Shown here one piece after another: positions 8,664 through 64,000 of a stretch of DNA of 64,000 nucleotides. How positions within the stretch are numbered: the first letter of the stretch is position 1; each line of letters opens with the position of its first letter. The stretch is from Strigamia acuminata (Eukaryota; Arthropoda; Chilopoda; Geophilomorpha; Linotaeniidae), in assembly GCA_949358305.1 (NCBI GenBank), contig OX442315.1, forward strand, positions 36,174,427 to 36,238,426, read 5' to 3'. A program made the translations under genes and the position numbers. The notes under the pieces were generated by a model, which saw nothing but the letters and a program-made list of their open reading frames with translations, made no database searches and was not told the DNA's origin.

Positions 8664-8854
8664 TTGATTTGTAGCATTTGTGGGCGAGTTTTGAGTGAAA
8701 ATTAATCGATGGCGAGCGCAGACAGAAGAGTGTAAAGCGCGTGACCGTGAGTACGATCGTTTTTTTCGTTTTCTGAGTTCGATAATTGGCTCAAACCTGT
8801 TCTTTCCTTGCCGAGCGTGCCAACTGGACGTTGATAAGTCGATAAAACGACAAG

Positions 8855-26247: not shown

Positions 26248-26279
26248 CCAATCAGTGATTGGTATTTGTATTATATAAA
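26248..26279 (+). promoter_or_regulatory. Promoter-like CCAAT palindrome plus TATA box
   Basis: CCAATCAGTGATTGG (26248-26262) carries CCAAT motifs on both strands. It is followed 9 nt later by TATATAAA (26272-26279). The tandem-retropepsin ORF begins about 70 bp downstream. The arrangement could equally be the remnant of an LTR promoter, as AATAAA follows near 26293. Confidence 0.45.
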
Positions 26280-26349
26280 GTGTTGTGTTTTAAATAAAAA
26301 TCACTTATCTATTTACAACTGTTGTCGCGTGTACATTTACAGTGTTCCG

Positions 26350-27420
26350 ATGTTACCGACGTCAGTCAGCGAGCACGAGAAAACCCGAAATTATCGAAGA
26401 ATCGGACGCACACGGCGAACGAAGCGAAAAACCAAGGTCGAAAAATGGTGTTTGGACAGTGGAGCAGATTCACACATGTGTTCGAATGAATCTGCATTTT
26501 CAAAAATCGAACTCGTTGAAAACGAGATTATGCAAATGGCTAGTGGTGCGCAATCGGAAATTAACGGAGAAGGAACAGTCAAAATTCTTGTCATAAGTGA
26601 GAACGGATTTGTGACCTTAAAAGAAACGCTGCTTGTGCGGGATTTGGAAACGAATTTAATATCCGTCGGGAAGATCACCGATAATGGATACAAAGTATTG
26701 TTCGACGACAAAGTCGCAGAAATCATCAATCCAAAAGGACAAGTTGCGTTTAAGGCAAAACGGAAGCGAGACGGTTGTTATTACGTCATCGGCCAAAGCG
26801 CAAAACAAGTGAAAACTCAAGCGAAAATCGTACCAAAAATAACACCGAAATTCAAGATCATTGAAGAATCAGACGCACACGGCGAACGAAACGAAACTGC
26901 GTTAAAAAGCGAGAACCCAAAGTCGAAAAAATGGTGTTTAGACAGCGGAGCAAATAAACATGCTTGTTGGAACGAATCTAGATTTTCGGAAATCGAATTC
27001 GTTGAAAACCAGGTGGTGAAATTGTCTTGTATTAACGCGCAATCGGAAATTGCTGGAATAGGAACAGCCAAACTTCTTGTCAAAAGTGACAACAGAATTG
27101 GGATTTTAAACTTAGAAAAAACGCTGCTCTTGCCGGATTTTGAAGAGAATATTGTATCTGTCGGGAAAATCACCGATGACAGATACAAAGTATTGTTCGA
27201 CGACAAAGTCGCAGAAATCTCACATCCAGTAGGACAAGTTGTGTATACGGCGAAACGGAATCAAGACGGTAGTTATTACATCATCGAACAAACCGTACCA
27301 AAAATAACACCGATATTCGTTAATTTCTATTTTCTGTTTCCCTGTTCTTTTATCGTAATCGTATTCTTATATTGTATGTACCTGCTGGTAATGGAATTTG
27401 TTTTTGTCATCCCGATTTAA
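26350..27420 (+). CDS. ORF with two tandem Copia-type retropepsin domains
   Basis: The ATG at 26350 gives 356 residues. Two homologous units of about 120 aa follow one another: KWCLDSGADSHMC...NLISVGKITD...YKVLFDDKVAEI, then KWCLDSGANKHAC...NIVSVGKITD...YKVLFDDKVAEI. Each resembles the Copia protease plus the sequence leading to the pre-integrase region, and both keep the catalytic DSG. No zinc knuckle, integrase or RT is present. The nucleotide sequence before each unit, encoding IIEESDAHGER, is also duplicated, but in the first copy it lies in another frame because one A is missing at 26441-26445. The C-terminal ~30 residues are strongly hydrophobic and could be a membrane segment. It may be a decaying Copia remnant with an internal duplication or a captured protease gene; the function is unknown. 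Confidence 0.6.
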   Translation: MLPTSVSEHEKTRNYRRIGRTRRTKRKTKVEKWCLDSGADSHMCSNESAFSKIELVENEIMQMASGAQSEINGEGTVKILVISENGFVTLKETLLVRDLETNLISVGKITDNGYKVLFDDKVAEIINPKGQVAFKAKRKRDGCYYVIGQSAKQVKTQAKIVPKITPKFKIIEESDAHGERNETALKSENPKSKKWCLDSGANKHACWNESRFSEIEFVENQVVKLSCINAQSEIAGIGTAKLLVKSDNRIGILNLEKTLLLPDFEENIVSVGKITDDRYKVLFDDKVAEISHPVGQVVYTAKRNQDGSYYIIEQTVPKITPIFVNFYFLFPCSFIVIVFLYCMYLLVMEFVFVIPI

Positions 27421-38563: not shown

Positions 38564-38642
38564 AGTAACAGTGAATCCGGACAGAACAGCTCGAAAGAAC
38601 TCGTAATTTCAAAGAAAAGCACCAAGACCAGACAAGGACAAG

Positions 38643-41600
38643 ATGGACGCCCTTGATCGTTTGCGCGCACAGCAAGAAACAGCCAGATTGGGAGCGGATC
38701 GATTGGTAAATACAGTTATCGTCGAATTAGCATTAGCGCAATCAGATGCGATAGTTTTAAGAAAGCTAAAAAACCAATTAAACGCTAAAACTGAACAATT
38801 AAATGATCTCGATGAGAAAGTGTCACCATTCATTGTAACGCGAGCAGACTTACAAAAGGAAGAGGAGGACAATGAAGAGTATCGAGAGAAAATTATTGAT
38901 GCGCTTACAGATATCGACATCAAATTAGACGTATTAGCTCCACCAGCGGTAGTTATTAATCCAGGCGCTCCAAACAACGGATCGGTCAGCAGTACGAACG
39001 ATTGGACAGTGAGACTCCCGAAACTCGTAATGAAGAAATTTTCGGGAAACCCAATCGAATGGAGCGATTTTTGGTCGAATTTCGAGTTGAGTGTAAATGG
39101 GAACACTTCCATCACTACCAAAGCTAAGTTTGTGTACTTAAATTCGGTTCTCGAAGGCACAGCAGCGGCTGTGGTGCGAGGACTAAAGATAAGTGATGAG
39201 AATTATGCAGCGGCAGTCACGCTTCTTCAAAATCGTTTTGGAAGAAAGGAGGTGATTGTGAATGCCCATTTGCAGATGTTGATGAAGCTTGAGCCAGTCA
39301 AGCGACTCAACGACCTCGACAGGCTTAGAAAATTGTACGACACGTGCGAGATGCATGTCCGTAACCTCGAAAATGAAGGAATAGAAACCACGACGTTTGG
39401 CGTTATGTTGTGTCCCTTGTTGCGTGCAGCGATTCCAGACGTGATCGCTTTAGACTTTTCGCGGAAAAACAGTAATAATACCCATGACCTTAAGCTATTT
39501 TTAGAATTTTGGCGAGAAGAATTAGAAATTCGAGAACAGAACGCAGCCGACAATGCACGATTCGCAACCAAAGAGGTCGAGAAAAACGTCGCGAAGACGT
39601 ACGGAGACACCAAGAAGACAACACGTTTCGAGAAACCAGCTTCTTCGAGCGCGTTGATGACCAACACTTCCGATTCTACTTGTATTTTCTGCAGCGAAAC
39701 CAGCCACAAGAAGGAAGACTGTCCCTTATCAATTGCAGATCGATTGAAGCGTTGCCAGCAAGCTCGACGTTGCTTCAAGTGTTTGGCGAACAAACACATG
39801 GCCCGAAACTGCCCACAGAAGGAAAAATGCGTACAGTGCGAACGATTTCACCACATATTGTTGTGCGAAGGGCCGACAGAAAAAGCAGAGAACGTTTTGG
39901 CGTCAACAGTAACTACAGCTAACACTGACATTTTCTTGCAAGTCCTAATGGCCAACGTGGAGTCCAACCACAAGACGAAAACGGTGCACTGTTTCTTCGA
40001 CGGAGGCAGTCACCGGTCGTTCATCAGTTCGAAGTTGGTTAAAGAAATTGGAGCTCAAGTTGTGGGAGAACAACTTATCAGCATTACTGGTTTTGGTGAA
40101 ACAGTAGCTAAGCCAGAGAGTCGTCGAAGAGTTAAAATTACATTACGAAACACCCAAATTAATGACAATTCTTTCGATTTAGAACTCATAGAAGTGCCGT
40201 GGATCAGCAATTCCTTAGCAAAACAGTCGGGAGTTCACGTGCGTGAGAAGTTGAAGCAAAATAACATTGTTTTGAATATTGATCAGCTTTCAATTCAACC
40301 GAACGAAGTGTCAATTTTGATCGGTGCTGACAACTTTTGGCGCATTGTTACCGGCGAGACAAGACGATTAGACGAAAATCTGATGTGTTTGCATACAGGA
40401 CTTGGGTGGACGATGCACGGAGCGATTCGAAGTGAGGAAACGATAACCAAACAGCCGACCATTCAGGTGCATCTTGCGCGTTACGAGGATCGACTGGACA
40501 ACATGCTGAAACGTTTTTGGGAGTTGGAAGACTTGGGTATTCCACACGAGACTCTTACTGACCATCAAGACGAGGACGATCAAGCAGTGACAGCGTTCAA
40601 GAAGTCGATTAAATGGACTGGTGACAGATATGAAGTGCGGTTGCCGTGGCTAATGCCGAAAAGTGAACTAGACAGTAACTATCAAATCGCTTTAAAAAGA
40701 TTGTGGAATTTAGTCCGAAAATTTAGAAAAGATCCCGAACTTTATTATCGCTATAAGAAAGTTTTGGATGACCAGATGGCGGAAGGAATCATTGAGACGG
40801 CCCCAGAAGTGTCAGATCAGAGCGGTTGTTACTATTTGCCGCACAGTCCCGTCATACGAGAGCGTCGTAGTACAACTAAATTGCGTATCGTGTACGATGC
40901 CTCGTCGCACGCGCAAAAAAGCCGCTCGTTGAATGATTGCCTCTTTACTGGGCCAAACTTGTTACCAGAACTAATCAATGCATTGTTATTTTTTAGACAG
41001 TTAATAGTGGCGTTGATAAGCGACATCAAACAAGCGTTCCACCAGATTTTGCTCCATCTGGACGACAGAGATGCAGTGCGATTCTTGTGGATTGCCGCTG
41101 ACTGGGATTTAGTGAGCCCGATTAAGGTGGAGATTCTCCGACAGACTCGAGTTCTGTTTGGGGCGTCTCCAAGCCCATATTTGCTGAACGGGACCATCCA
41201 ACATCACTTGGAGAAGTACGCAACAAAGTATGCAGAATTGATCGCGCGACTGTTGAAACGATTCTACGTGGACGACTATTTAGACAGTGTCAGCACCGAC
41301 CAAGAGGCGATCGAAACGTACAAGAAAGTGTCCGAAATAATGTGTGAAGCAAGTATGGATTTGGTTAAATGGAACAGTAATTCGAAACTTTTACGTGAAC
41401 AGTTTAAAATCGATCACCCGGAGACAGAGCTCGAGACTGAAGTTAAAGTGTTAGGGCTGAAATGGAACTGTGAATTGGATGAATTGGCACTCGATCTCGA
41501 GGAAGTGAAAACGACTCTCGAACGTGAATTAATCACCAAACGACGAGTGATCCAATTAGTGGCCCAAGTTTTTGATCCGTTGGGTTTTGCATCGCCATTT

Positions 41601-43835
41601 ACGGTGACAGGAAAGATGTTTTTCCAACAATTGTGGAAACATAAAATGGAATGGGATGATCGACTTCCGAAAGAACTGATACCACAGTGGGAAAACTGGA
41701 AGAGTCAATTGCCAGAGTTAGAGCGAGTTCGAGTGCCCAGACATTATGGAATCGATCCAAATGCATCAGAAATTGAACTTCATTTGTTTTGCGACGCCAG
41801 TCCGTTAGCATATGGCATCGTGGCGTACACAAGAGTGCGTCAATGTAATTCACTAATCAATACTTTTTTCGTTCTCTCTAAATGCAGAATAGCTCCGATA
41901 AAAACGTTGACGCTGCCACGACTCGAGTTGATGGGCGCGTTACTTTTGGCACGAGTCGCAGGTCGAATGAAGCAGTTCACGACTGCGAAGGTCACAGCCT
42001 GGACCGACTCCACTATCGTTTTGTGTTGGCTAGGAGAGCGAAAAAAGGCGATTCCGTTCGTCGCACGCCGAGTCGAGGAGATAAAACAGCACGTGCCGTT
42101 TGCAAATTGGCGTCATTGCCCTGGCGTCCAGAATCCTGCCGACCTACTCACACGTGGGATAGATGCAAAATCGTTATTGGAGTCCAAGACATGGTGGAAC
42201 GGCCCCGAGTGGCTCACGATGGATGAACACGAATGGCCAAGTGTTCCGACGACTCAGGCGGACGATTTTGAGATGGAGTTGGAAGAAACTCTAGCAGCAA
42301 CAGTCATCGTTCCCCAAACTTGGTTGATAGATGTGCCCACTCGATACGGCAGTTGGAGAAGATTGTTGCGTGTAACCAGCTGGGTGAATCGTTTTCTTAA
42401 CAATTGTAAAAGTGCAGTGCGAGACGGTTCACCATTGACGACAGACGAAATTAACAATTCCGAAAGATACTGGTTGCAAACAATGCAACAACAGAGTTAT
42501 TCAAAGGAACTTTTAGCAATTAAAAATCAACAGAGTTTCGAACGAGATTCGATATTACGAAATGTGACGTGTTTCATGGACAGCGAACAAACCATGCGAT
42601 TAAACACGCGAATCCAGTGGGCAGGGACAAAAAAGAACTTGAAAAACCCAATCGTTTTACATCCAAATCACCCACTAACAAAACTTATTATTCTGGCAGC
42701 TCACCAGCGAGTATTTCACGGCGGACTTGGCGAGACGTTAGCAGAGTTGAGACAATGTTTTTGGACACCAAAACTCCGAAAAACAGTCAAAAGCGAGTTG
42801 AATAGATGTTTCGTCTGCAAGCGAGTGCAAGGGCGGTTAGTACAACAAGTGGAAGCTGCGTTGCCACCAGATCGAATTACGCAGGCTGCACCGTTCCAAG
42901 TCGTCGGTATTGATTTTGCCGGACCTCTGTACCAGCAAAGCGGTGAAAAGTGTTACATTGTAGTGATAACATGCGCAGTAATTAGGGCCGTACATCTCGA
43001 ACTAGTCACCAGCATGAATACTGAACGTTTTATTCTGGCCCTAAAGCGATTTTTTGCACGAAGGGGCATACCAACGAAAATTTATTCGGATAATGCGCTA
43101 ACGTTCAAGAGAACCGAAAAGGAACTTTGCGCCTTGTTAAGTTCCATTAGAAAAGAGCAGTTTCAGGGCTTCTTAACAGATAGAAAAATCGAGTGGAGTT
43201 TCATCGTGGAACGAGCTCCGTGGTGGGGTGGGTTCTGGGAGCGTATGGTGAAGTCGACGAAGATGAGTTTAAAGAAAGTTCTCGGTCAAACTACATTGGA
43301 CTTCGAAGAGCTAACCACCATCCTCTCAGAAGTTGAATCCTGTATTAATTCCCGTCCTATTACATATGTCTACACAGAAAACGAAGATGAACAACCGCTG
43401 AGTCCATCTCACTTCTTAACCGGAGGAAGAAGCTGCAATTTACCGGATCCTAACCAGAAGTTGGACGAGAAACTTTCATCAAGCACAGTGACATTGTTGA
43501 AACGATGGAAACAGCGACAGCAAAAAATAAGTCATTTGTGGTCACGGTGGAATCATGAATATCTCACCGAGTTGAGAGAATACAACAAAACGAAGGCGTC
43601 TCGTGAAGTTCAGAAAGGGGACATTGTTGTGATTGAAGAGTTAAATCAGCCGCGCATGACGTGGAAAATTGGTAGGATTAGAGAAGTTTTCATAGGAAGA
43701 GATGGGCGAGTACGAGCGTGTGAGATACAGCTTCCCTTTAATAAAGTCCTGAGAAGACCGGTACAACGATTGTGCATCTTGGAGGCTCAGGACGGAATTG
43801 AAGCGAGTGAAGAACTCACTCCGGCCCCAGTGTGA
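38643..43835 (+). CDS. gag-pol: BEL/Pao Gag-Pol polyprotein
   Basis: One 1730-aa ORF from ATG 38643. It has an N-terminal coiled-coil-rich segment (about 1-100), the DUF1759-type gag domain (about 120-270), cysteine/histidine knuckles (CIFC...C near 345, CFKCLANKHMARNC near 377, CVQC...C near 396) and a BEL-type protease near 449 with FFDGGSHRSF. RT spans about 745-900 with YVDD near 875. RNase H has LFCDAS near 1048. The integrase has its zinc region near 1353, then GIDFAGP near 1422, SDNALTF near 1486 and the catalytic Glu in FWERMV near 1530. A DUF5641-type C-terminal domain follows. The protease shows D-G-G where family members usually have D-S-G or D-T-G. The stop TGA (43833-43835) is made by the first bases of the 3' LTR, so coding sequence touches the LTR with no gap. 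Confidence 0.96.
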   Translation: MDALDRLRAQQETARLGADRLVNTVIVELALAQSDAIVLRKLKNQLNAKTEQLNDLDEKVSPFIVTRADLQKEEEDNEEYREKIIDALTDIDIKLDVLAPPAVVINPGAPNNGSVSSTNDWTVRLPKLVMKKFSGNPIEWSDFWSNFELSVNGNTSITTKAKFVYLNSVLEGTAAAVVRGLKISDENYAAAVTLLQNRFGRKEVIVNAHLQMLMKLEPVKRLNDLDRLRKLYDTCEMHVRNLENEGIETTTFGVMLCPLLRAAIPDVIALDFSRKNSNNTHDLKLFLEFWREELEIREQNAADNARFATKEVEKNVAKTYGDTKKTTRFEKPASSSALMTNTSDSTCIFCSETSHKKEDCPLSIADRLKRCQQARRCFKCLANKHMARNCPQKEKCVQCERFHHILLCEGPTEKAENVLASTVTTANTDIFLQVLMANVESNHKTKTVHCFFDGGSHRSFISSKLVKEIGAQVVGEQLISITGFGETVAKPESRRRVKITLRNTQINDNSFDLELIEVPWISNSLAKQSGVHVREKLKQNNIVLNIDQLSIQPNEVSILIGADNFWRIVTGETRRLDENLMCLHTGLGWTMHGAIRSEETITKQPTIQVHLARYEDRLDNMLKRFWELEDLGIPHETLTDHQDEDDQAVTAFKKSIKWTGDRYEVRLPWLMPKSELDSNYQIALKRLWNLVRKFRKDPELYYRYKKVLDDQMAEGIIETAPEVSDQSGCYYLPHSPVIRERRSTTKLRIVYDASSHAQKSRSLNDCLFTGPNLLPELINALLFFRQLIVALISDIKQAFHQILLHLDDRDAVRFLWIAADWDLVSPIKVEILRQTRVLFGASPSPYLLNGTIQHHLEKYATKYAELIARLLKRFYVDDYLDSVSTDQEAIETYKKVSEIMCEASMDLVKWNSNSKLLREQFKIDHPETELETEVKVLGLKWNCELDELALDLEEVKTTLERELITKRRVIQLVAQVFDPLGFASPFTVTGKMFFQQLWKHKMEWDDRLPKELIPQWENWKSQLPELERVRVPRHYGIDPNASEIELHLFCDASPLAYGIVAYTRVRQCNSLINTFFVLSKCRIAPIKTLTLPRLELMGALLLARVAGRMKQFTTAKVTAWTDSTIVLCWLGERKKAIPFVARRVEEIKQHVPFANWRHCPGVQNPADLLTRGIDAKSLLESKTWWNGPEWLTMDEHEWPSVPTTQADDFEMELEETLAATVIVPQTWLIDVPTRYGSWRRLLRVTSWVNRFLNNCKSAVRDGSPLTTDEINNSERYWLQTMQQQSYSKELLAIKNQQSFERDSILRNVTCFMDSEQTMRLNTRIQWAGTKKNLKNPIVLHPNHPLTKLIILAAHQRVFHGGLGETLAELRQCFWTPKLRKTVKSELNRCFVCKRVQGRLVQQVEAALPPDRITQAAPFQVVGIDFAGPLYQQSGEKCYIVVITCAVIRAVHLELVTSMNTERFILALKRFFARRGIPTKIYSDNALTFKRTEKELCALLSSIRKEQFQGFLTDRKIEWSFIVERAPWWGGFWERMVKSTKMSLKKVLGQTTLDFEELTTILSEVESCINSRPITYVYTENEDEQPLSPSHFLTGGRSCNLPDPNQKLDEKLSSSTVTLLKRWKQRQQKISHLWSRWNHEYLTELREYNKTKASREVQKGDIVVIEELNQPRMTWKIGRIREVFIGRDGRVRACEIQLPFNKVLRRPVQRLCILEAQDGIEASEELTPAPV

Positions 43836-52729: not shown

Positions 52730-53360
52730 TGTGGTGATTCGGCATCACCTGAAGAAGTAATTAGCGGTGATTATTGTGTTACTAATACTCGCCACTAGAG
52801 CGCGCTAGAAATACCGACTAGACTGACTAGTCTCGTGTTTCTGCGAACCTGCATAATCGGAAGGATTTGCATATGACGTCATTTCCGGTTAGTATATAAC
52901 GCCGATACTTGACCGGAAACGACACTACAGTTACCACATTTCAGCAAGAGCACCATTTACCTCACCTTTCAGGCCGTTTCACGGATTGATCGAGGACCGG
53001 TGCCCGCTGACCATTTCAACTGTACAACAGCCACATTTATTTAGCGTAGCCAATCTACGCTAGAATAAATATTCGAACGATATTCGTTTAATTCGCACGA
53101 GAAAGCGAATTCTCGCGTGTTCATAATAACACGTGGAAATACCCTAGACAACAAACATAGACCACGCGTAGGACTAAACAATTGGATCCGCCATTGTTTA
53201 GCGGCAACTCGTATTCGCAGCCGAATCCGAGGACCAACACAGGAAACATCTTGACTTATATTTGTATTAGTAAGCGTGTTTTAATAAAGCAGTATTTGAA
53301 ATATATTGTATTCCCGAGTGTATTATTTATTATCTTTAACCACAAAGTCGAATCACGACA
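52730..53360 (+). repeat. Gypsy 5' LTR (631 bp)
   Basis: It starts TGTGGTGATTCGG and ends CACGACA. Its start is fixed by the 3' copy at 63877; its end is inferred from the TG...CA rule and the primer site 2 nt later. It contains a CRE and a TATA box (separate entry) and AATAAA motifs near 53063 and 53283. Confidence 0.88.
52874..52899 (+). promoter_or_regulatory. CRE plus TATA box in the Gypsy LTR
   Basis: A perfect TGACGTCA (52874-52881), the ATF/CREB-family site, is followed 11 nt later by TATATAA (52893-52899). Transcription should start about 25-30 bp downstream. The CRE suggests signal-responsive expression (inference). Confidence 0.7.
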
Positions 53361-53380: not shown

Positions 53381-53452
53381 AGATTTGCTAACCTTAAGAC
53401 AATACTTTAAATAATAACCGGGATCTTTCGATCGATCATTATATCGTAAGAA

Positions 53453-56299
53453 ATGACAAAAACTACCGCAGAAGATAGAAAAAGGCGTAACGACGAAAAG
53501 GATAGAAAAGAAGCCGAAGAAATCGAACGCCAAAAAGCGGGAGAAGCGAACCACGTGGAACCAGAAGTCGAGACTAACTCGACTAAAGTTTCAACGGAAT
53601 CATCAAGTGAAAGCCTTCCCCTTGCAAGACAACTTCCGTTTACGGGAGGCGAATTCGAAGGATCAGGAAGCTCTCACGAAGAAAACGGACTAAATAAATC
53701 GTTCGAAAACCCTCGATTCGGATTGAAAAGCCCAAGACCTGTCGAAAAGGATCCCAGTGAAATGGATCTAATGACTCTTCTAAATAAAGCGGCAAACACA
53801 AGTGCCGCAATGATCAACGAGGCTGCCCGCGCAGACCAAGCAAGAACAGTCGCGTTAGAGAAGAAGAAAAACGAATTGATGGAAGATTTAGCCAGAGAGC
53901 ATCGCGAGAAATTAGCTGCCATGGAACAGAGCTTGGCACAAGAACACCAAGCTAAACAAATGGCACTGGAGCGCGAGCTGGCTCGAGAATTGCTCGCGAA
54001 GCAGAAAATAATCGAACGAGAAATGGCAAAGGACTGCCAGATCCGGCCGCCAAGCAACGGGTTAAGCCAGCATTCGGAGCCAAACTCCGTACAGAGCTCC
54101 CCAGAACGGTCTCACACAGCTAAGGAGCTGGTAGCCAAAGCAATAGAAGTAACTCGGGTAGCTTGCGCACACGGCATCGAGATCGACCAGGACAAGGATC
54201 CCTACGCAGAGCTAAGCCGAGTAATCGACCTAGTAAATCAGAGGACTGAAAAACGATCGGCAGATAACACGGCCAGACGCGGAGAGAAACGACGTCGGGT
54301 CGGAGCAGATCGACAACAGTCCGAGACAGGCGGCGAAGCAACGTCAGACAGCGAAAGTATCGACTCTCAAGCATCTCACGGCAGTATCCGAGTCAACGGA
54401 CTAGATAGCATCTTGAACGAATCGGACGAAGTCAAAGGAGAACTGTACGAGGCGTTTATACAAGATAGGAGGAATAATCAGGGCGCGCAATCATGGGCAA
54501 TAAAAAACTCATTCGCAATGAAAACTGGCCAAACCAGTAATAACAACCCAGGCGACCCTAACGCAGAACTAATCAGATGTATAAATCAGAAGAATCAAAT
54601 ACGCAACGAAGTAGGTCAAAATAAACTGGCCATGCCGACGCTCGAGGAGATTAACGCAGTTAAAAATCACCTCGAAAAGAAACACGCCGCCGAAGCGTAT
54701 GCTGGGAGAGATTCCTACGTTTTTATCAAAAAAACGAACGAAGGCCTCACGGGGACCCGACTGGACGATCTGATACCGCCCGGAACAAAGTTGAGCCAAA
54801 CCTCCGCTCCAGAGAAAGCGAACCCAGATAACTCAACCATAGCGCAAGACCTCACGAATAACCCGAACACCGCGGGATCATCAGGGAAAACGTCGTTCCA
54901 ACACAATCAGTTCGGACTGACGGGCAACGGTACGCATTACCCAAGCCTCCCTTCCGACAATCCACGATCATCACCGCTGCTTAGTGAGACTGACTCGCTA
55001 AGCAACCAACTACGGACGATGAGAGACGAACTCCTTCAGGCCATGGACCAAAAGCTTCAACAAAGCCGTGGCCAAGAGACCGAGGAGGACGATCGAAGCG
55101 AAGGATTGTTGAAACGTTACTCCGCAGACCGATGGCTGTATTCTCGCAAGGATAACAACATCAAGTGGACGACCCTGAGACTAATTAAGTTCGACGGATC
55201 CTGGAACGCCGGCAACTTGTTTTTGGACGAAGTCGCCCTGACGATTAATCGCTTAGGAGCGGAACCCGACGAAATGGTTGCACGCGGAATACCAGAAATG
55301 CTGATCAACCGGGCCCGAAACTGGTACGCTGATGTCCAACCCCGAAACTGGGAAGATTTCGTCATAAAGTTCCACAATCAATATGGCGAGACGAGCCAAG
55401 AGATCCAGAAAAGAGTAAGCTCTATGAAGCAAGCTCCCGGGGAAACTCTGAGGGAATACGTACAACGAGCCGACAGCCTGTTCCGTGAAATGGACAAACC
55501 ATTTGACCAACACGCTCAGAAAGCTCTCTTCGAACAAGGACTAAACGAAACCGCAACCAAAGTCCTACGAGAAATGAACGCTCCTAAGGGGGATAATTTC
55601 AAAGCCATCCTAGCTTTCGTCGAGAAGAAACACACCGAAGTAAATGCTCGGTATAACGAAAATCTGACAAAAGAAGAGCGAGCTCTAGGAGTGGCCCGAC
55701 AGCAACGAATACAGGAGCGCAGCATAGACTCCACTAAGCTGCTCCAATCGCGAAATTATCTAAACGGAAGTATAGAGCCACTCCCCTCAAAGAAAAACCA
55801 ACAAGCTTCTAACCCTTTACCACCTCCGAGTAAGGCCTATCGCACGCAAACTAACGCCGCCGAGGAAAAGTCGGAAGACGAAGTAAGCGAAGACTCTGAG
55901 CAATTCTCGGAAAGCGATGAGGCTGACGAAGGTATCAACGATGTGGTACACGCAAACATGGGGAAGGAACTGGCGCCCAGCTACCGACCTCAGATGAAGT
56001 CCAGAAAATCGGAACACCACAACCCGAAAACAGAGGCGACTTCCGAGAAGAAGGACTACCCCAAAAAACCTTTTGAGCGGGAGGGAAAGAAAAAAAGCCC
56101 TTGTAATTTCTGTAACGAAGACGGCCACTGGCGTCAGGCCTGCCCAAAACTGGCAAAGAAAAAAGCCGACGACAAGGCCGCAGAGCGTGAGGAGCTAGTG
56201 AAATTGCTCGCGAAGGAACAAGACAAAATCTTGAAGGAACTCACCGCCAAACTCGACAGTATGACAAAAAACTGGAACTCGCGGGCGGAACAAAAGTGA
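53453..56299 (+). CDS. gag: Gypsy Gag
   Basis: 948 aa from ATG 53453 to TGA 56297-56299. The N-terminal third is charged and contains a long predicted coiled coil (about residues 120-200, heptad-like Ala/Leu/Glu/Lys). The capsid region of the Retrotrans_gag type is around 577-712 (FDGSWNAGNLFLDEV, ARNWYADVQPRNWEDF, FHNQYG). An acidic stretch follows, then one CCHC knuckle, CNFCNEDGHWRQACPK, near 883-898. It is large for a Gypsy Gag because of the roughly 550-residue segment ahead of the capsid domain. A frameshift signal close to its end lets some ribosomes enter pol. Confidence 0.93.
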   Translation: MTKTTAEDRKRRNDEKDRKEAEEIERQKAGEANHVEPEVETNSTKVSTESSSESLPLARQLPFTGGEFEGSGSSHEENGLNKSFENPRFGLKSPRPVEKDPSEMDLMTLLNKAANTSAAMINEAARADQARTVALEKKKNELMEDLAREHREKLAAMEQSLAQEHQAKQMALERELARELLAKQKIIEREMAKDCQIRPPSNGLSQHSEPNSVQSSPERSHTAKELVAKAIEVTRVACAHGIEIDQDKDPYAELSRVIDLVNQRTEKRSADNTARRGEKRRRVGADRQQSETGGEATSDSESIDSQASHGSIRVNGLDSILNESDEVKGELYEAFIQDRRNNQGAQSWAIKNSFAMKTGQTSNNNPGDPNAELIRCINQKNQIRNEVGQNKLAMPTLEEINAVKNHLEKKHAAEAYAGRDSYVFIKKTNEGLTGTRLDDLIPPGTKLSQTSAPEKANPDNSTIAQDLTNNPNTAGSSGKTSFQHNQFGLTGNGTHYPSLPSDNPRSSPLLSETDSLSNQLRTMRDELLQAMDQKLQQSRGQETEEDDRSEGLLKRYSADRWLYSRKDNNIKWTTLRLIKFDGSWNAGNLFLDEVALTINRLGAEPDEMVARGIPEMLINRARNWYADVQPRNWEDFVIKFHNQYGETSQEIQKRVSSMKQAPGETLREYVQRADSLFREMDKPFDQHAQKALFEQGLNETATKVLREMNAPKGDNFKAILAFVEKKHTEVNARYNENLTKEERALGVARQQRIQERSIDSTKLLQSRNYLNGSIEPLPSKKNQQASNPLPPPSKAYRTQTNAAEEKSEDEVSEDSEQFSESDEADEGINDVVHANMGKELAPSYRPQMKSRKSEHHNPKTEATSEKKDYPKKPFEREGKKKSPCNFCNEDGHWRQACPKLAKKKADDKAAEREELVKLLAKEQDKILKELTAKLDSMTKNWNSRAEQK

Positions 56300-56316
56300 T
56301 TCCACATCCGCTCGCG
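56266..56316 (+). promoter_or_regulatory. Programmed -1 frameshift signal at the gag-pol junction
   Basis: The heptamer AAAAAAC (56266-56272) is in the gag frame as A-AAA-AAC, a canonical slippery site. After a 7-nt spacer, CGCGGGCGGA (56280-56289) pairs with TCCGCTCGCG (56307-56316): ten pairs including one G-U, with a 17-nt loop that contains the gag stop. The -1 frame is open from 56191, and pol is in exactly this frame. Confidence 0.88.
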
Positions 56317-59300
56317 ATAACTTCGAAAACGATGGACCTTACTCTGGTGGAAAAACAAATTAAAGAAATGGAAAAATTGTTGGAATTCTTCGAGGAAGCT
56401 GCCAACGAGGAAGTCACAACTCCAACCAAAAAACGGAAATTCGAAATTAGAGACGAAGACGGTATAGCCAACGCTTTCATGACTTTGCCGCTTGACCAAG
56501 GGGCCAATCCTCTTAAAAAGCGAATACTTCGTTGCAACCTATCAACAGAAGCGAAGAGCGTACTGGCTAAAATACCAGTCTCTTTCGGCAAAAAGGTGTT
56601 AATGGGACTACTCGACTCGGGAGCGGATCAGTCGTTTATCTCCACCGACTTATTCGAATCACTCGAAGAAAAAATACAGAAAAAATTACGGGGAATGAAC
56701 GAGAACATTCGAGTTCTTACAGCAGCGGGAGAAGTTAGAGCAGTGGGGACGTTATCAACCGATTTTGTATGGGAAGGAGGCACGATTAAGCATTTCTTCA
56801 TCGTGTTACCAACCCGAGACACAATCCTGCTGATAGGAATGGATTTGATGGAACGGATGAACATCCAGCCCAACCCAGTCACACGTTCGTGGAATTACAT
56901 CGACAACCACGAGGACCCACGACTACCCATAATACCTCCGGAACTCCTAGACAAAGCTAAGGACGACGAGGAATGGGGAGGAGGCGAAATTAAGAAGTTC
57001 ATCCAAGACTATAATTTTAAGTCGTTTAATACTATCCTCCAAGAGGAGAATTTAATACATAATCTGGCCATGGACGCCAATCTTGGAGAAGAACAAACGA
57101 AACTCCTCGAGGAAATGCTCAAGAAGCACTCGAAGAACTTAAATAAAGATCCAGGAAAGACTAGTTACGTAATGCACGAGATCGAATTGGTTACGGGAAA
57201 ACCGGTGCGAGTACCTTTTAAAACTATGAATCCCCAAAAGAGACATATCGTAAGAACGATGTGCAACGAGTTGCTCGAAAAAGGGATCGTGTCGCACGCC
57301 ATCGGAGAATATGGAATGAGGATTGTCCTCGTCATGCGACCAGGCTCCGAACCGCGCCTCTGCATCGATTATAGACCTTTAAACGCCATAACCGTCATCG
57401 ACCCCATCCAAATGCCGTCAATAGAAGCGATTCTACGGGAGCTCGCCCCATTTAACTGGGTCACGACCATGGACTTGTCCAAGGGTTACTGGCAGGTTGA
57501 ATTGCGGGAAGAGGATAAAGAGAAAACAGCTTTTTGGGCACCACAGGGTCGACTGATGTTTAATGTAATGCCCTTCGGGTTAGTAAACGCACCCGCCACC
57601 TTTCAAAAACTAATAGAAAAAGTTCTCGGCGATGCCTTACACAAATACGCATGGGCTTACCTCGATGATATAGTCATAGTCTCCCAAACTTTTGAAGACC
57701 ACCTGATACACGTGAATGACGTCATGGAGCGACTCACAAAAGCCGGTCTAAACATTCATCCAGGGAAAAGTAAATTTTGCCGCAAAGAATTGGCATTCCT
57801 GGGTTACACAGTCGGAACAGGTGGCCTATCCATCGACCCGAAAAAGACCCAGGCGATTAGCCAGTTCCCCGCCCCGGAAGATGTAAAAGGAGTCCAACGT
57901 TTCATGGGCATGGTGAATTTCTTCAATCGATTGCTCCCAAATTTGGCAGACGTCGCGGCACCCATCACAGATCTGTTACGCAACGATAAAGATTTCGAGT
58001 GGACTGACCACTGCGAAACATCGTTTAACAAGATAAAACAAATGCTGATCGATGTAAAACGAATTCCCCTACCAGATCTTAATCGAGAATTCACTCTTCA
58101 CACCGACGCCAGTCGAATTGGCCTAGGTGCTGCGTTGCTTCAAAAGCATGACATCGACGGAGTAGTGTTAGAGGTCCCGACGATGTTCATCAGCCGGAAA
58201 TTACAAGCAGCCGAAAAGAATTATAATGCGACAGAGTTAGAATGTCTAGCCGTCGTCTGGGCAATCCGAAAATTCAGACCATACCTGGAATTTACCAAGT
58301 TCAACGTACAAACTGACCACGAAGCACTAAAGTGGTTAATGGCGTTGAAGGAACCGTCCGGAAGAATGGCTCGCTGGCAGCTAGAATTAATGGCTTGTGA
58401 CTTAATCATTGAATACCGACCCGGAAAATTCAACGTCGTGGCAGACGCCCTCTCACGAGCCCCAGCTTCAGACCCCGAAGACGAGACCGACTGCGGAGAG
58501 GACGACTCACGCCTCTTCTACTGTCCGAACCCCGTCCGAAAATGGGAATTTAAAAAGCTAAACGAATTACCCAAGGAGAAACTCGAGTCAGGAGACCAAA
58601 ATTATTACAATTATTGGCTCCGAGCATACCAGTCTGTCAAGGACGCTCACCCAAATTACGAGCTAACGATAGAACCTCGAATCTCCGACAAGTACGTTCG
58701 AGCATTCGTCGCCCACGTAAGCAAGGGGACGAATAGTAAGCCGCCCACCAGGGACGAATTAATAGCCGCCCAGATGACAGACGACTTCTGTAAAACTTAT
58801 CGAAACTTCATCACAGATAAAAAATTTCCCGACGAGAATTTCGACGAAATCCAACGCGAAGAATTCGAAAGAGAAGCCTCCACGTACTTAATCGAGGATG
58901 GACTTCTACTAAAACACCACCCGAATTTCCGCGATGATCTGACGGAGACGGGAACTTCGATGAAAGTCGTTATACCCAGGAGTCTGCTGACAAGGTTTCT
59001 GTGGATGGTCCACGGACACCCGCTCGCCGGACATTCTGGAGTGGCCAGAACGATCTACCGAGCAAATCAACTTTATTTCTGGCCAAAAATGACCCGAGAT
59101 ATCGTTCGTTTTATTCATCACTGCCCCAGATGCCAAGCGTGCAAGCCGAGGACGCCCAAGAACTACGAGAGAATCTCACTTGGCCCTTTCGCACCCTTCG
59201 ATTGCTGGAGCGTGGATTTAATGGGCCCAAAGCCCACGTCATCCAATAAAAACAAATATATATTAGTGATCATGGATGTCGCGACTGGATGGCCCGAACT

Positions 59301-60378
59301 CTTTCCAATGGAGAGACCAACTAAGCAAAAAATCATTCGATGTTTGTACGAAGTGGCGCTTCATTTCGGATTCCCTCGAAAATTAATCTCCGATAATGGA
59401 CCACAATTCGCGTCAAATTTGTATAAAGACTTCTGTAAAAAATTCGACATCGAGACATCATATACATCAACCTATAATCCACGGGCCAATCCCGTCGAAA
59501 GGTTAAATCGCGATATAAAATATGCACTAGCAATTTTCACCGATGTTCACTCCAGCTGGGACGAATATCTTCGTGAAATTGCCTTCAGCATCCGCACAAC
59601 GATCTCAAGGAACCGCAAATTTTCTCCCGCGTTTCTAAACTTCGCTCGGGAACTCAGAGTACCCTGGGACCCACGAATACCGGAGGAAATACTGGAAATT
59701 GATCCTGAGAAGCCTCATATTTATGTCGACAGACTGGAGCAAATAATTTCGGCCACTTATCAGCACATGATGTCACACATATTCGACATGAGAGATCGTA
59801 TTAGCATTGCTGGAAAGGATCGGCCCTTCTGCAATTTTAAAGTCAATGACCTCGTCTGGAAAGACACACATATTCAGTCCAGCGCCGATAAGGGGGTCCA
59901 CGCAGGCTTAGCAGACAAACGCGACGGCCCGTACGTCATACTCGAAGCCCACGGCGGAAACGCTTTCAAGCTAAAAAGATTGGCAGACAACGTTAATTTT
60001 AGATCGATCCACGCCCGAGAATTAACTCCATACTTACCTGAGTTTCCTCAAGAGGCTTGGACGGAATATCAGACGAAACCAGCGCAAAATCCAATTATTC
60101 GCGACATGTTTTTAGATGAACAAACTGGCCCAACCAATTTAGTTCAAGATGAGTCACACGAAGCGGCCGACGCCCCGGATGAGATTTCGGAGAGGGAGGA
60201 AATAGTCGAAGAATCTCCTAAAAAAGGAAAGCAATCAAACGAAAATAAGACTACAAGAATCCTCAAACCTGATAAAATATACGGTATGCGTCGACACAAG
60301 CCAAACCCGTTCATAAAAGACGGGAAACTCGTCGGAAAACAAAAAGCGACTCCGGCCATTGTCTCAAACAATCGATAA
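56296..60378 (+). CDS. pol: Gypsy Pol (protease, RT, RNase H, integrase)
   Basis: An open frame of 1360 codons in the -1 frame relative to gag. The first codon listed is GTG; the first ATG is 56332, but expression by frameshift at 56272 makes a start codon unnecessary. Domains: retropepsin LLDSGADQSF near 105 and LLIGMDLM; RT with MDLSKGYWQVEL, MPFGLVNAPATFQ and YLDD near 455; RNase H with LHTDAS near 601; integrase with an HHCC zinc finger (HPLAGHSG...CPRCQAC, about 909-950) and DDE core (CWSVDLMGP near 969, SDNGPQF near 1032, NPVERLN near 1065). The order RT-RNase H-integrase defines Gypsy. The C-terminal extension after about 1290 is charged and shows no recognisable chromodomain. Confidence 0.95.
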   Translation: MIPHPLAITSKTMDLTLVEKQIKEMEKLLEFFEEAANEEVTTPTKKRKFEIRDEDGIANAFMTLPLDQGANPLKKRILRCNLSTEAKSVLAKIPVSFGKKVLMGLLDSGADQSFISTDLFESLEEKIQKKLRGMNENIRVLTAAGEVRAVGTLSTDFVWEGGTIKHFFIVLPTRDTILLIGMDLMERMNIQPNPVTRSWNYIDNHEDPRLPIIPPELLDKAKDDEEWGGGEIKKFIQDYNFKSFNTILQEENLIHNLAMDANLGEEQTKLLEEMLKKHSKNLNKDPGKTSYVMHEIELVTGKPVRVPFKTMNPQKRHIVRTMCNELLEKGIVSHAIGEYGMRIVLVMRPGSEPRLCIDYRPLNAITVIDPIQMPSIEAILRELAPFNWVTTMDLSKGYWQVELREEDKEKTAFWAPQGRLMFNVMPFGLVNAPATFQKLIEKVLGDALHKYAWAYLDDIVIVSQTFEDHLIHVNDVMERLTKAGLNIHPGKSKFCRKELAFLGYTVGTGGLSIDPKKTQAISQFPAPEDVKGVQRFMGMVNFFNRLLPNLADVAAPITDLLRNDKDFEWTDHCETSFNKIKQMLIDVKRIPLPDLNREFTLHTDASRIGLGAALLQKHDIDGVVLEVPTMFISRKLQAAEKNYNATELECLAVVWAIRKFRPYLEFTKFNVQTDHEALKWLMALKEPSGRMARWQLELMACDLIIEYRPGKFNVVADALSRAPASDPEDETDCGEDDSRLFYCPNPVRKWEFKKLNELPKEKLESGDQNYYNYWLRAYQSVKDAHPNYELTIEPRISDKYVRAFVAHVSKGTNSKPPTRDELIAAQMTDDFCKTYRNFITDKKFPDENFDEIQREEFEREASTYLIEDGLLLKHHPNFRDDLTETGTSMKVVIPRSLLTRFLWMVHGHPLAGHSGVARTIYRANQLYFWPKMTRDIVRFIHHCPRCQACKPRTPKNYERISLGPFAPFDCWSVDLMGPKPTSSNKNKYILVIMDVATGWPELFPMERPTKQKIIRCLYEVALHFGFPRKLISDNGPQFASNLYKDFCKKFDIETSYTSTYNPRANPVERLNRDIKYALAIFTDVHSSWDEYLREIAFSIRTTISRNRKFSPAFLNFARELRVPWDPRIPEEILEIDPEKPHIYVDRLEQIISATYQHMMSHIFDMRDRISIAGKDRPFCNFKVNDLVWKDTHIQSSADKGVHAGLADKRDGPYVILEAHGGNAFKLKRLADNVNFRSIHARELTPYLPEFPQEAWTEYQTKPAQNPIIRDMFLDEQTGPTNLVQDESHEAADAPDEISEREEIVEESPKKGKQSNENKTTRILKPDKIYGMRRHKPNPFIKDGKLVGKQKATPAIVSNNR

Positions 60379-60563
60379 AAACAACCACAGGGGGGACACC
60401 TGTTACGTCCCACAATGCGTCTTAATTGGCCAAACCAATCAAAGATGACATGAGACTAATAGTTAACCTCTAACCCGACCCACATTTATCACTGTCATCT
60501 CCGACTAAGCGACGATCACCTCGAGGCAGCCGTAAATCAAAGTATCAAATTAATTTCCGAAAA
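60379..60563 (+). other. Spacer between pol and the third ORF, with an LTR-like junction
   Basis: Just after the pol stop, a purine run (60390-60396, GGGGGGA) is followed by ACACC and TGTTACGTCCCAC from 60401. This looks like the polypurine-tract/LTR-start boundary of many Gypsy elements. It is not the sequence of this element's LTR. Confidence 0.4.
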
Positions 60564-63500
60564 ATGAAAAGAAATGATTGGAAGAAAGAAATTGAACGGG
60601 CCGTAAACAACGCTTCCGAGGATGACGATGAAGATCAAGTGGATTTGTTACAAATCATTGTAAACAACGAAGAGGGAAATTGGGACGAACCCAATGAACC
60701 CGATGTCCAACCCGACGTAAGTAAAAAAATAGAAAAAATTCAAGTATCGATAATCAAAAATACGAAATAAGTTCGTGGACTGACCACAAACGAAAAAATA
60801 ATTTAACTTTAAGTGACAAATTATCAAAATTAATCAAATACCGAAAGAAAAATTAACTTCAAAACACGTGGTCGAAAAGCACATGGCCGACCATGACGCC
60901 ATCTTGTGTTAGACGAAAGAATCTCTACAAAAATATGACAAATTAATCAACGATCCTAATATATTTATTAATATTCTAATATTTAGGACGGATATCGCAC
61001 TACGTGGGGGCAAATCGACCCGAAAAGAGTTTCCGCAGGCAGCTTATGGCGCGAAGTAATCCCCATACTGTTCCGACAAGCGCTCGAAGAAGCGGTCGAC
61101 TTTGAACCATGGAAAATTCGCCTTTTATTGTCCCGTGCGATCAGCCGCTACTGGTCCAGCCAGCAAACGTTGATCCACTACATGCCGCGCCAATATCAAG
61201 CAGCTTTACGGGCAGTTATCTCGAGAAATATGGACCCGCCAGCGCCAATCCCGAATCCACTAATCCGAGCCGCCTTTCCTGACGACCAGCGAGGATGGGA
61301 CGTTTACGAACAATGGCGCGACGCCGAAACAGATGAAGAAAAACACCAGATCCATATGGCATATTACGAAGAAGTAAGGCGGACCGCACATGACGAGGTT
61401 TTCAATTATCTACAGCCGGACGGTTACTCGACCGAGGAAATCAGGTTTTGGCTCCTTCAGATCCGCGAAGACCGGCCCGACCGCCCAGATTGGAGACCGA
61501 GACACGGTTTCATCACCTCGCAACGAGCAATGCATCAATTGCATTTTTTGGGCTTCTTTGGTCGCAAACGCCAGAAAGCCGAGAAACGTCTCTCCAACGA
61601 GCACGACGAAGCAGGCTGCTCAGCGAAGAAACAATGCCTGGACAAGCCAAGCACTTCCAGCAGCGCGCAGAATAAGAAACCCGCGACAGAGAAACGCCTG
61701 GCCAAACCAAGCGCTCTCTCTCGCCTGGGAAAGACGGAGGCCCCACAAACATCGCGATTTCAATCCAGGGACGCCCCGTCAACCAGCCGAAGAAGAGAAA
61801 ATGTGCGCGAACGCCCCGACCGTCGAGAGGATCAACGCAGACGCGATAGGAACCAAGAAAATTGGGACGATTATCGTAGAAATTACTTCCGACGGCGGGA
61901 AGAAAACAAGGAATCCTGGAATAGACATCGAGAGGAGTTCCTACGCGAACGTGATGAGAAAGCCCGACGTGAACGAGAGAACCTCCGGTTACAGGACGAA
62001 CGAAGAAGGAGAGGATCGGAGAGTCGCGCACGTTCATGGAAAGCGTATCGCGAAGAGGAATTACGACAGCGAGATAGGAGACGCTGTGAAGTCATCAAAT
62101 CGATTTGGGACAGTCCCGAACCGATGAAGATTGACGACGAAGTGATTATCGACGAGGTCCCCGAGCAGAAGAAGATGTATACTCAGGCGGATCTCCTCGC
62201 GGTGGTTATGAAATACCAACAAATGCAGCCGAAACCAGTCTACCGCCCGACTCCCTCGACCGCCTCGAGTCTAGAGACGGCGCCAAGTGCTTTCATCAAG
62301 CCGGAACTCTCACAGACGAGAAGCGTAACATCCAGCGTCAGCCTCCCAAGCGCCTTTCGCAAGAAAGTGATAATCGGCGCACCGACACTGAGTTCTGAAG
62401 AACAACTCAGACATCGAGAAGCTCGCTTTGGACCGACCAAAGTCGAACCTCTCCCAACTATCCCCGAAGCCTCAACTTCAACGAGAACTCCAATCGTTTG
62501 GGACAAGCCCGAACCGGAAAAATCAAGACGTCTGGTCAGATCTGTGCCTCAGCCAATGACATCCACGGGACCCAATCCGATGTTGCCAGCCCCAGCAGTC
62601 ATCCAAGCCTCGACTCCAATCAACCCTTCGGAGGTAACGTTGCAACAGTTTCTGGAGGTAACGACCGTGGAGCAAGCTAGAGCGCTTTTGTGCGAGATGG
62701 ACTCCTACCAACAAAACGTGATCCAAAACGTCATCACGAACCTTCAGCGGATCTCAATTGAATATACGCAGAACAAAAATCGGGATCATCCAAATTGGAA
62801 TACGAGGATCGTGGTTGCCATTACCGACTTGATGTCGATTTTGCTGGCCGCCGCCACCTTCCGAAACGCACGTGTTGCTGTAGCAGCCTGGATCGTGGTG
62901 GCCCACGAGGGTTTCCAAGTTCCGCCGGCTCTCGTAGACAGCTGGACACGTCTGGTGCCCTCTGCGGCAGTAATTCGAGCCCAAATGGTGGCCCAGGACC
63001 CGGATCCAGAGGCCTCCTACCAGAACGTTCGAGCGATAATTCAACGCTCGCTCCCGTCACCTTCGGCGGCCACGCCAACCGCAGAGACTCCGGTTCCCAG
63101 GGATCCGACGCCTCCTCCTCCGCCTCCGCCGAGGGAGAAGGGACCCTCCGAGCCACTGGCCGAACCAGTCCCGCTCAAGAAGAAGGAACCCAAGAAAAAG
63201 ATGCTCCTCCCAAAGTCGAGCAAGAAGGTTCCAAAGACGACAGAGCCTCAAATCGCCGCCAGACTCAGGATGTACTTCCCAGGGTTGTCCTTTACGAAGG
63301 ACACGGAGGCAAAACTACTCCAGTCTCCAGATCGTGGCTATTCTCTTTACGTCTGGATGAAGGACGCTATCGAAGCCGGAGCCGGAGGCGAGCGCTTCAT
63401 CCAACATCAACGACTACTCCGAGCCCATCGCGCACCAACCAGCATCGCCGAGGCCCAAAGAATCCACCACACCAATCAAGGTATGTCGGCCTTCCTGCCA

Positions 63501-63677
63501 CCAATTTGGGCCCACGAACGAACGGGAAATCCGCTGGAAGCGCCGGGACACCTACGTTTCTACTTGAATGAGAGCGAAGACCCCTCGGACTACTCTTCAA
63601 GACTGACCACATCTCCCAACCTGGACGAACCAAGTTCGGAAGATAAGCCGAGTTATGCCGATAACTTGAAGAAATAA
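60564..63677 (+). CDS. Third, spliced ORF of the Gypsy element (function unknown)
   Basis: Two exons, 60564-60716 and 60987-63677, joined by a donor GACGTAAGT and acceptor ATATTTAG in phase 0, give 947 aa from ATG 60564. Without splicing, the first reading frame ends at 60770 after 68 codons. Exon 1 is acidic (EDDDEDQ). Exon 2 starts with a helical W/R/E-rich domain (WGQIDPKRV, YWSSQQTLIHY, WDVYEQWRDAE), then a highly charged Arg/Glu stretch (about 320-426), a Ser/Thr/Pro linker, a helical moderately hydrophobic domain (about 610-720), a PTPPPPPPP run near 755-770 and a final domain with LRMYFPG and IWAHERTG. There is no signal peptide, clear envelope-type membrane anchor or zinc finger. It occupies the envelope position but does not look like an envelope glycoprotein. 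I recognise no family. Confidence 0.7.
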
Positions 63678-63865: not shown

Positions 63866-63876
63866 GGGGAGGGACG
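63866..63876 (+). promoter_or_regulatory. Gypsy polypurine tract
   Basis: GGGGAGGGACG lies directly before the second LTR copy. Confidence 0.75.
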
Positions 63877-64000
63877 TGTGGTGATTCGGCATCACCTGAA
63901 GAAGTAATTAGCGGTGATTATTGTGTTACTAATACTCGCCACTAGAGCGCGCTAGAAATACCGACTAGACTGACTAGTCTCGTGTTTCTGCGAACCTGCA
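63877..64000 (+). repeat. Gypsy 3' LTR, first 124 bp
   Basis: Same as 52730-52853 by reading. About 507 bp more are expected past the window, followed by a short copy of the bases just before 52730. Confidence 0.93.

Follow-up and report, generated by a model that had tools for sequence, protein, structure and literature searches.

A third gene with an arginine-rich mixed-charge domain, predicted to be spliced, in a Ty3/Gypsy element of Strigamia acuminata

The window analyzed here is a 64-kb stretch of Strigamia acuminata DNA (64,000 nt of contig OX442315.1). Its last 11 kb is a Gypsy element that carries a third open reading frame (ORF3) between pol and the polypurine tract and 3′ long terminal repeat (LTR). 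All features of the element lie on the plus strand. The 5′ LTR was placed at 52730..53360, with its start taken from a repeat and its end inferred from TG...CA read from the sequence. Of the 3′ LTR, the window includes only the initial 124 nt (63877..64000), and the remainder lies beyond the window end. These 124 nt exactly repeat the 5′ LTR start at 52730; with an LTR length of ~631 bp (end inferred), the compared part is about a fifth of the LTR and is too short for dating the insertion. The polypurine tract (63866..63874, read from sequence) stands two bases 5′ of the 3′ LTR. The gag open frame (53450..56299, 949 codons stop to stop) encodes a long charged N-terminal part and, at residues 615-700, a Retrotrans_gag domain (PF03732, E 1.7e-10, Pfam). 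The gag zinc knuckle PF13696 was weak as a Pfam profile match (E 0.0025, missing the family cut-off), and a C-x2-C-x4-H-x4-C knuckle pattern is present in the sequence near residue 890. The pol open frame (56191..60378, 1395 codons) overlaps gag in the −1 frame. It encodes protease, reverse transcriptase, RNase H and integrase in that order (Pfam), and its best PDB match was the Ty3 Gag-Pol chain 7q5b_A (E 1.6e-102). By its pol order, gag capsid domain with zinc knuckle and paired LTRs, the element belongs to Ty3/Gypsy (Metaviridae). A small GGGAC/GTCCC hairpin-like inverted repeat was seen by eye just 3′ of the pol stop codon (60393-60411). No second copy of the element (blastn) or of the large exon 2 of ORF3 (tblastn) was found in window positions 1-52729, and a search of IMG/VR contigs with the pol piece 57301-60375 gave one pattern match and no confirmed one.

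ORF3 was read as two segments. Exon 1 (60564..60716) starts with the ATG at 60564 and has 51 codons, whose coding status is predicted; exon 2 (60987..63677) has 896 codons plus a stop. The coordinates proposed in a first-pass annotation of this DNA were confirmed, together with the splice signals, phase 0 on both sides of the junction and the total of 947 aa. In exon 2, no stop was found in its own frame, whereas the remaining plus frames contain 25 and 20 and the three minus-strand frames 22, 29 and 28. Stops are rare in exon 2 through its GC-rich composition, and 300 sequences simulated from exon 2 with a second-order Markov model therefore served as a control. The longest open run in these simulations had a mean of 248 codons and a maximum of 525, and none of the 300 reached 896. 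These results indicate that the element has a true third gene with an open frame beyond chance, seen here in one copy. The GC content of exon 2 is 0.54 versus an element mean of 0.48, and its third-position GC is 0.57, versus 0.52 for gag and 0.51 for pol. The stop that bounds exon 2 upstream is the TAG of the splice acceptor, and no Met occurs before residue 66; therefore, translation of the preceding 65 residues would require splicing or initiation at a non-AUG codon. The intact frame beside identical LTR ends had also been taken as a sign of maintenance. However, that identity covers the 124 nt compared, and a recent insertion would have an intact ORF3 regardless of its use, so this argument is no proof of maintenance.

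The predicted intron (60717..60986) is 270 nt long and runs from a GTAAGT donor at 60717 to an acceptor, CTAATATTTAG, that ends at 60986. When the splice sites were scored with approximate matrices, donor 60717 (score 2.97) ranked fourth among the 381 GTs of the element, and the acceptor before 60987 ranked seventh among its 766 AGs. The intron GC is 0.278 versus 0.479 for the element. Only 5 of the 10,877 270-nt windows were as low in GC or lower, and all of them start at 60715-60719; the intron thus coincides to within two bases with the element's AT-richest stretch of that length. A two-breakpoint GC segmentation of 60379-61400, made blind to splice signals, placed the low-GC segment at 60718-60985. 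Within 2 log-likelihood units, its end was held tightly (60981-60996) and its start loosely (60533-60940). The 3′ boundary, which is the acceptor and the start of the GC-rich exon 2, is therefore well fixed, and the 5′ boundary, the donor, is less so. From splice signals, phase and composition, ORF3 probably contains an intron; of the spliced third ORF put forward earlier, the open frame is thus real and the intron stands as a prediction. If the intron is real, the insertion was copied from an intron-retaining RNA, and unspliced RNA of the element would have reached reverse transcription. Exon 1 may enter the messenger RNA (mRNA) through a weak acceptor or an internal promoter. Weak acceptors are common in retroviruses. 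The donor-like site with the highest score in the element (63481, AAG|GTATGT) is inside ORF3 near its 3′ end. An alternative ORF3 end via this donor was set aside, as the frame is still open and GC-rich beyond it (GC 0.52).

The composition of the predicted protein was then resolved into parts. Exon 1 is strongly acidic (net −12), and its best 19-residue hydropathy is −0.66. Exon 2 residues 1-190 (60987..61556) form an N-terminal, probably folded part that looks helical by composition and a low-confidence model, and a basic linker (by composition) lies between residue 190 and 266. Residues 266-366 (61782..62084) are an arginine-rich mixed-charge domain (R-MCD), after which come a short acidic part and a Pro/Ser-rich linker. 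A second helical part, more hydrophobic and identified on the same grounds, covers residues 546-695 (62622..63071). Residues 696-752 (63072..63242) comprise a proline-rich stretch and then a lysine-rich block resembling a nuclear localization signal (NLS), and a C-terminal part follows residue 752. Within its 101 residues, the mixed-charge domain has 36 Arg, 3 Lys and 26 Asp/Glu, with a net charge of +0.13 per residue. Its charged residues reach 65 per 100, whereas no more than 49 occurred in any of 500 shuffles of this protein. The maximum number of Arg per 100 residues was 36 in exon 2, compared with 13 in gag, 12 in pol, 24 in the copia protein of the window and 14 in its Bel/Pao protein. 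Residues 266-366 thus fit the R-MCD definition, with Arg interspersed with acidic residues at high charge density. An NLS-like KRQK occurs at exon 2 residue 194, and Lys-rich 20-residue windows start at 728-732. Single-sequence AlphaFold2 gave helical, low-confidence models for residues 1-206 and 540-700, with a predicted local distance difference test (pLDDT) score of 46 and 48, respectively. Because these models, made without an alignment, were too poor, fold matches would be meaningless, and only "helical" was taken from them. A repeated 9-mer (residues 315 and 355, 7/9 identical) was not significant, since 2 of 25 shuffles reached 7. W-D-x-P-E-P occurs twice (W374 and W505), about 6/9 identical by eye, a level that shuffles match.

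Relatives of ORF3 were searched for in several collections. Pfam, PHROGs and NCBIfam contained no family that matched exon 2 at E<=1, and exon 1 matched none in Pfam at that threshold and one PHROG weakly (E 0.44). Against PDB sequences, exon 2 matched weakly twice (E 0.17 and 0.29), each time over residues 703-807, and these matches were taken as chance. Exon 2 yielded 3 pattern matches in IMG/VR contigs and 18 in GTDB genome contigs, none of them confirmed; these collections cover viruses or prokaryotes and say little on eukaryotes. Homology to a known envelope or gag, which would have counted against the earlier reading, was not found for exon 2 in Pfam, and BLASTP with the element's own gag showed no similarity (best E 0.69). 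Among the matches listed from the open-licence literature, none was a sense-strand Gypsy ORF3 with an R-MCD; a Gypsy pol extension with a coiled coil has been described (PMC7998251).

The closest analogue found for ORF3 is CERV of Cer1, a Gypsy/Ty3 element of Caenorhabditis elegans, and function is likened here by inference, not assigned by membership. CERV is encoded by a non-env ORF between pol and the 3′ LTR, is nuclear and is required to export the unspliced genomic RNA of Cer1 (PMC10309623). It is made from a spliced five-exon mRNA and has 517 aa (PMC10309623; PMC3315495), and the long Cer1 RNA needs consensus splice sites to be skipped (PMC3315495). As in CERV, the product of ORF3 would come from a spliced RNA (shown for CERV, predicted for ORF3) with the intron kept in genome RNA. 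Both have a candidate NLS, and both lack relatives outside their group, according to the CERV authors' statement and, for ORF3, in limited searches. CERV differs in its length of 517 aa, its five exons, three of which (exons 1-3) share the frame of gag, its Cys-rich loop and its candidate Leu zipper, and an R-MCD is not mentioned in the portions of its description at hand. ORF3, in contrast, has ~947 aa and a local 270-nt intron, and the two are likened by description, not by sequence kinship. Rev and Rex are arginine-rich regulators that are made from spliced RNA and let unspliced RNA exit the nucleus. The proposal for ORF3 is similar, with an arginine-rich product of spliced RNA that would free unspliced RNA. 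However, ORF3 is far larger than Rev or Rex, and the scans revealed neither a clear export signal in its product nor a response element in the RNA.

Given the R-MCD and the CERV analogue, we propose ORF3 as a nuclear regulator of its own intron-containing RNA. That it is a nuclear accessory protein acting on this RNA, with a CERV-like working, is the reading we favor, tentatively and at somewhat below even confidence. A transcript would span the whole element, and its uncut form would serve as genome and gag-pol mRNA. The spliced form would lose the AT-rich 270-nt intron and be translated into a protein of ~950 residues, laid out as a short acidic leader, a helical part, the R-MCD, a second helical part, a Pro/Lys-rich stretch and a C-terminal part. 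The basic blocks would direct the ORF3 protein to the nucleus, and the mixed-charge domain would direct it into RNA-processing bodies. There it may bind the intron-containing RNA of the element and set the amount exported unspliced, so that a feedback loop would link the intron to the protein whose reading frame spans it. R-MCDs target the proteins that carry them to speckles in the nucleus or, if the charges are blocky, to the nucleolus (PMC9324279). Net positive charge strengthens this targeting, and natural examples of proteins with such domains are U1-70K and NELFE (PMC9324279; also PMC12629991). A higher R-MCD dose keeps GA-rich mRNAs in speckles (PMC12629991). The sign of the ORF3 effect, export or retention, is not predictable from composition. 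A more specific version, in which ORF3 is an independently evolved splicing/export regulator whose mixed-charge domain would recruit genomic RNA to RNA-processing bodies of the nucleus and set the balance of spliced and unspliced forms, as a counterpart of Rev and CERV that works through condensates, is improbable as it stands. Of the accessory roles suggested by the first-pass annotation, RNA binding or localization remains the best option on account of the R-MCD, and a capsid-related role is not borne out, as exon 2 had no Pfam match at E<=1 and no BLASTP similarity to the element's gag.

Several observations weigh against the proposed nuclear role and gene structure. The acids of the domain are chiefly Glu (18) versus Asp (8), and Glu and Lys have a limited effect on localization according to earlier work cited in PMC9324279. 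The domain has 48 opposite-charge pairs at i,i+3/4, compared with 39.1 +/- 4.7 in 1000 shuffles, with only one Pro and one Gly, so that it could form a rigid charged helix instead. No RNA-binding family in Pfam matched ORF3. The pattern K[KR]x[KR] occurs once in exon 2, once in gag and three times in pol, so that the motif alone says little, and gag has Lys/Arg-rich windows too. Leucine-rich export-signal patterns numbered 10, versus 6.1 +/- 2.7 in 500 shuffles, with no clear signal among them. In a scan for RNA structure (184 windows of 120 nt, 40 shuffles each), windows in the intron region had z-scores of −1.7 to +1.6, and the lowest were found elsewhere; because the intron region was unremarkable, no response element is proposed. 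The two lowest z-scores of the element were in the 5′ LTR (52910-53149), with −5.3 at 52910 and −5.2 at 53030. No strong acceptor was found 5′ of exon 1 in 60300-60564, where the best score was −2.8. Moreover, codon usage trained on gag and pol scored frame 0 of exon 2 at 21.9 bits, frame 1 at 5.5 and frame 2 at 27.0. Because codon usage fails to separate the frames, the coding case rests on the stop counts.

Other explanations were weighed against this reading. ORF3 could be real and its exon 2 joined from a donor in or before gag, giving either a fusion of the Gag N-terminal part with ORF3 like that of CERV or an mRNA with a joined leader like that of errantivirus env. This possibility, which we hold to be well short of likely, rivals the route of expression only and is compatible with a nuclear role. 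Phase-0 donors are present within gag at 54611 (score 2.10) and 55883 (score 1.51), and a GTAAGA at 53446 (score −0.22) lies just 5′ of the gag ATG. There is precedent in CERV, whose exons 1-3 are in the gag frame (PMC10309623), and in insect env exons, which are spliced to exons 5′ of or inside gag (PMC12992720). However, donor 60717 scores higher (2.97), and the low-GC segment is best placed, if loosely, at 60718, which fits a local intron. It is also rather unlikely that ORF3 is a structural or assembly protein, a second matrix or capsid-associated protein, in cytoplasmic particles. The two helical-looking parts flanking a long charged linker, with their low-confidence helical models, would suit such a protein, whereas the lack of a Pfam match for exon 2 at E<=1 and of similarity to the element's own gag argues against it, and the mixed-charge composition points to the nucleus. 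Capture of a host gene or a piece of one, recently and in this copy only, would place ORF3 outside the working set of the element. Host-gene capture, raised in the first-pass annotation, seems unlikely here. The GC of exon 2 (0.54) exceeds the element mean (0.48), and an intron would suit a host origin. On the other hand, ORF3 is placed exactly between pol and the polypurine tract, gag (0.52) and pol (0.51) have a third-position GC close to that of exon 2 (0.57), and retroelement capture goes through RNA, so that introns are expected to be lost.

An envelope or other membrane protein that has diverged is a very unlikely identity for ORF3, in spite of its position 3′ of pol and its predicted splicing, which are as in errantivirus env. 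No signal peptide was found in exon 1 by hydropathy scan, the exon being acidic and not hydrophobic (a dedicated predictor was not used, and another first exon is possible). The best hydrophobic window of exon 2, residues 607-625, has a Kyte-Doolittle value of 1.84, which favors a membrane segment, but it contains an Asp, and its insertion energy is positive (best +1.96). Exon 2 has 4 Cys and one N-glycosylation pattern (NxS/T) in 896 residues. A pattern search for a furin site and fusion peptide found R-x-K/R-R solely at 339 and 362, both within the Arg-rich domain. Envelope traits are thus absent or, for the transmembrane (TM) segment, borderline, in agreement with the earlier remark that no clear envelope features were visible. 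Least probable of all is that there is no gene and that a GC-rich stretch of a single copy is open by chance. The composition is low in stops (simulated mean longest run 248 codons), one copy was seen, and codon usage gave frame 0 21.9 bits versus 27.0 for frame 2. However, none of the 300 simulations reached 896 codons (maximum 525), and the frame has no stops compared with 20-29 in each of the other five.

Spliced or non-env third ORFs are already known, and an Arg-rich mixed-charge ORF3 in sense orientation in a Gypsy element had no counterpart among the matches listed. An intron in the coding part of an LTR element, which had been regarded as unusual, also has precedents in the spliced env of errantiviruses (PMC12992720) and in CERV (PMC10309623, PMC3315495). 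In insect errantiviruses, env-F is a third ORF 3′ of pol that is expressed from a spliced RNA (PMC12992720). It has a signal peptide, a furin site, a fusion peptide, conserved Cys and a TM segment, whereas simple scans of ORF3 recognized none of these (TM borderline). The ORF3s of bdelloid rotifer LTR retrotransposons are varied, often non-env and typically made from spliced messages (PMC5408684). Their types include a GDSL esterase, a DEDDy exonuclease, TM or coiled-coil ORFs and a paramyxovirus-like env, and exon 2 matched no family. The sORF2/FAST-like proteins of MDG1-group insect elements are extra non-Env products, encoded 3′ of pol in some Lepidoptera (PMC11952523). They are transmembrane proteins of 63-107 aa, unlike ORF3, which is large and mostly soluble-looking. 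Some products of extra ORFs in plant LTR retrotransposons are nuclear, and splicing of the env-like ORF of Bagy2 has been reported (PMC7264820, PMC11963269). The nuclear plant examples are antisense, whereas ORF3 is sense and not env-like.

The window also holds other retroelement sequences. An uninterrupted copia-type gag-pol frame of 1467 codons lies at 8846-13249 and an uninterrupted Bel/Pao gag-pol frame of 1742 codons at 38607-43835, so that one 64-kb window contains long open coding frames from three retroelements (copia, Bel/Pao and Gypsy). A 390-codon frame at 26248-27420 has two stretches matching copia Pol_BBD (PF22936) as its sole Pfam domain at E<=0.001; the frame may be an odd stand-alone Pol_BBD duplication. 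A Pro-rich frame of 449 codons (17519-18868) had no Pfam match at E<=0.001. This frame resembles animal BCAR3/NSP adaptor proteins.

How LTR retrotransposons of animals export genome RNA that contains an intron has been worked out for few, and CERV was the sole case found in the literature at hand. If the proposed role of ORF3 is true, it would be a second, unlike protein in the position of CERV, which would suggest that such regulators arise repeatedly. Moreover, if purifying selection acts on copies of ORF3, it would plainly exemplify a long non-env accessory gene that a Gypsy element has retained.

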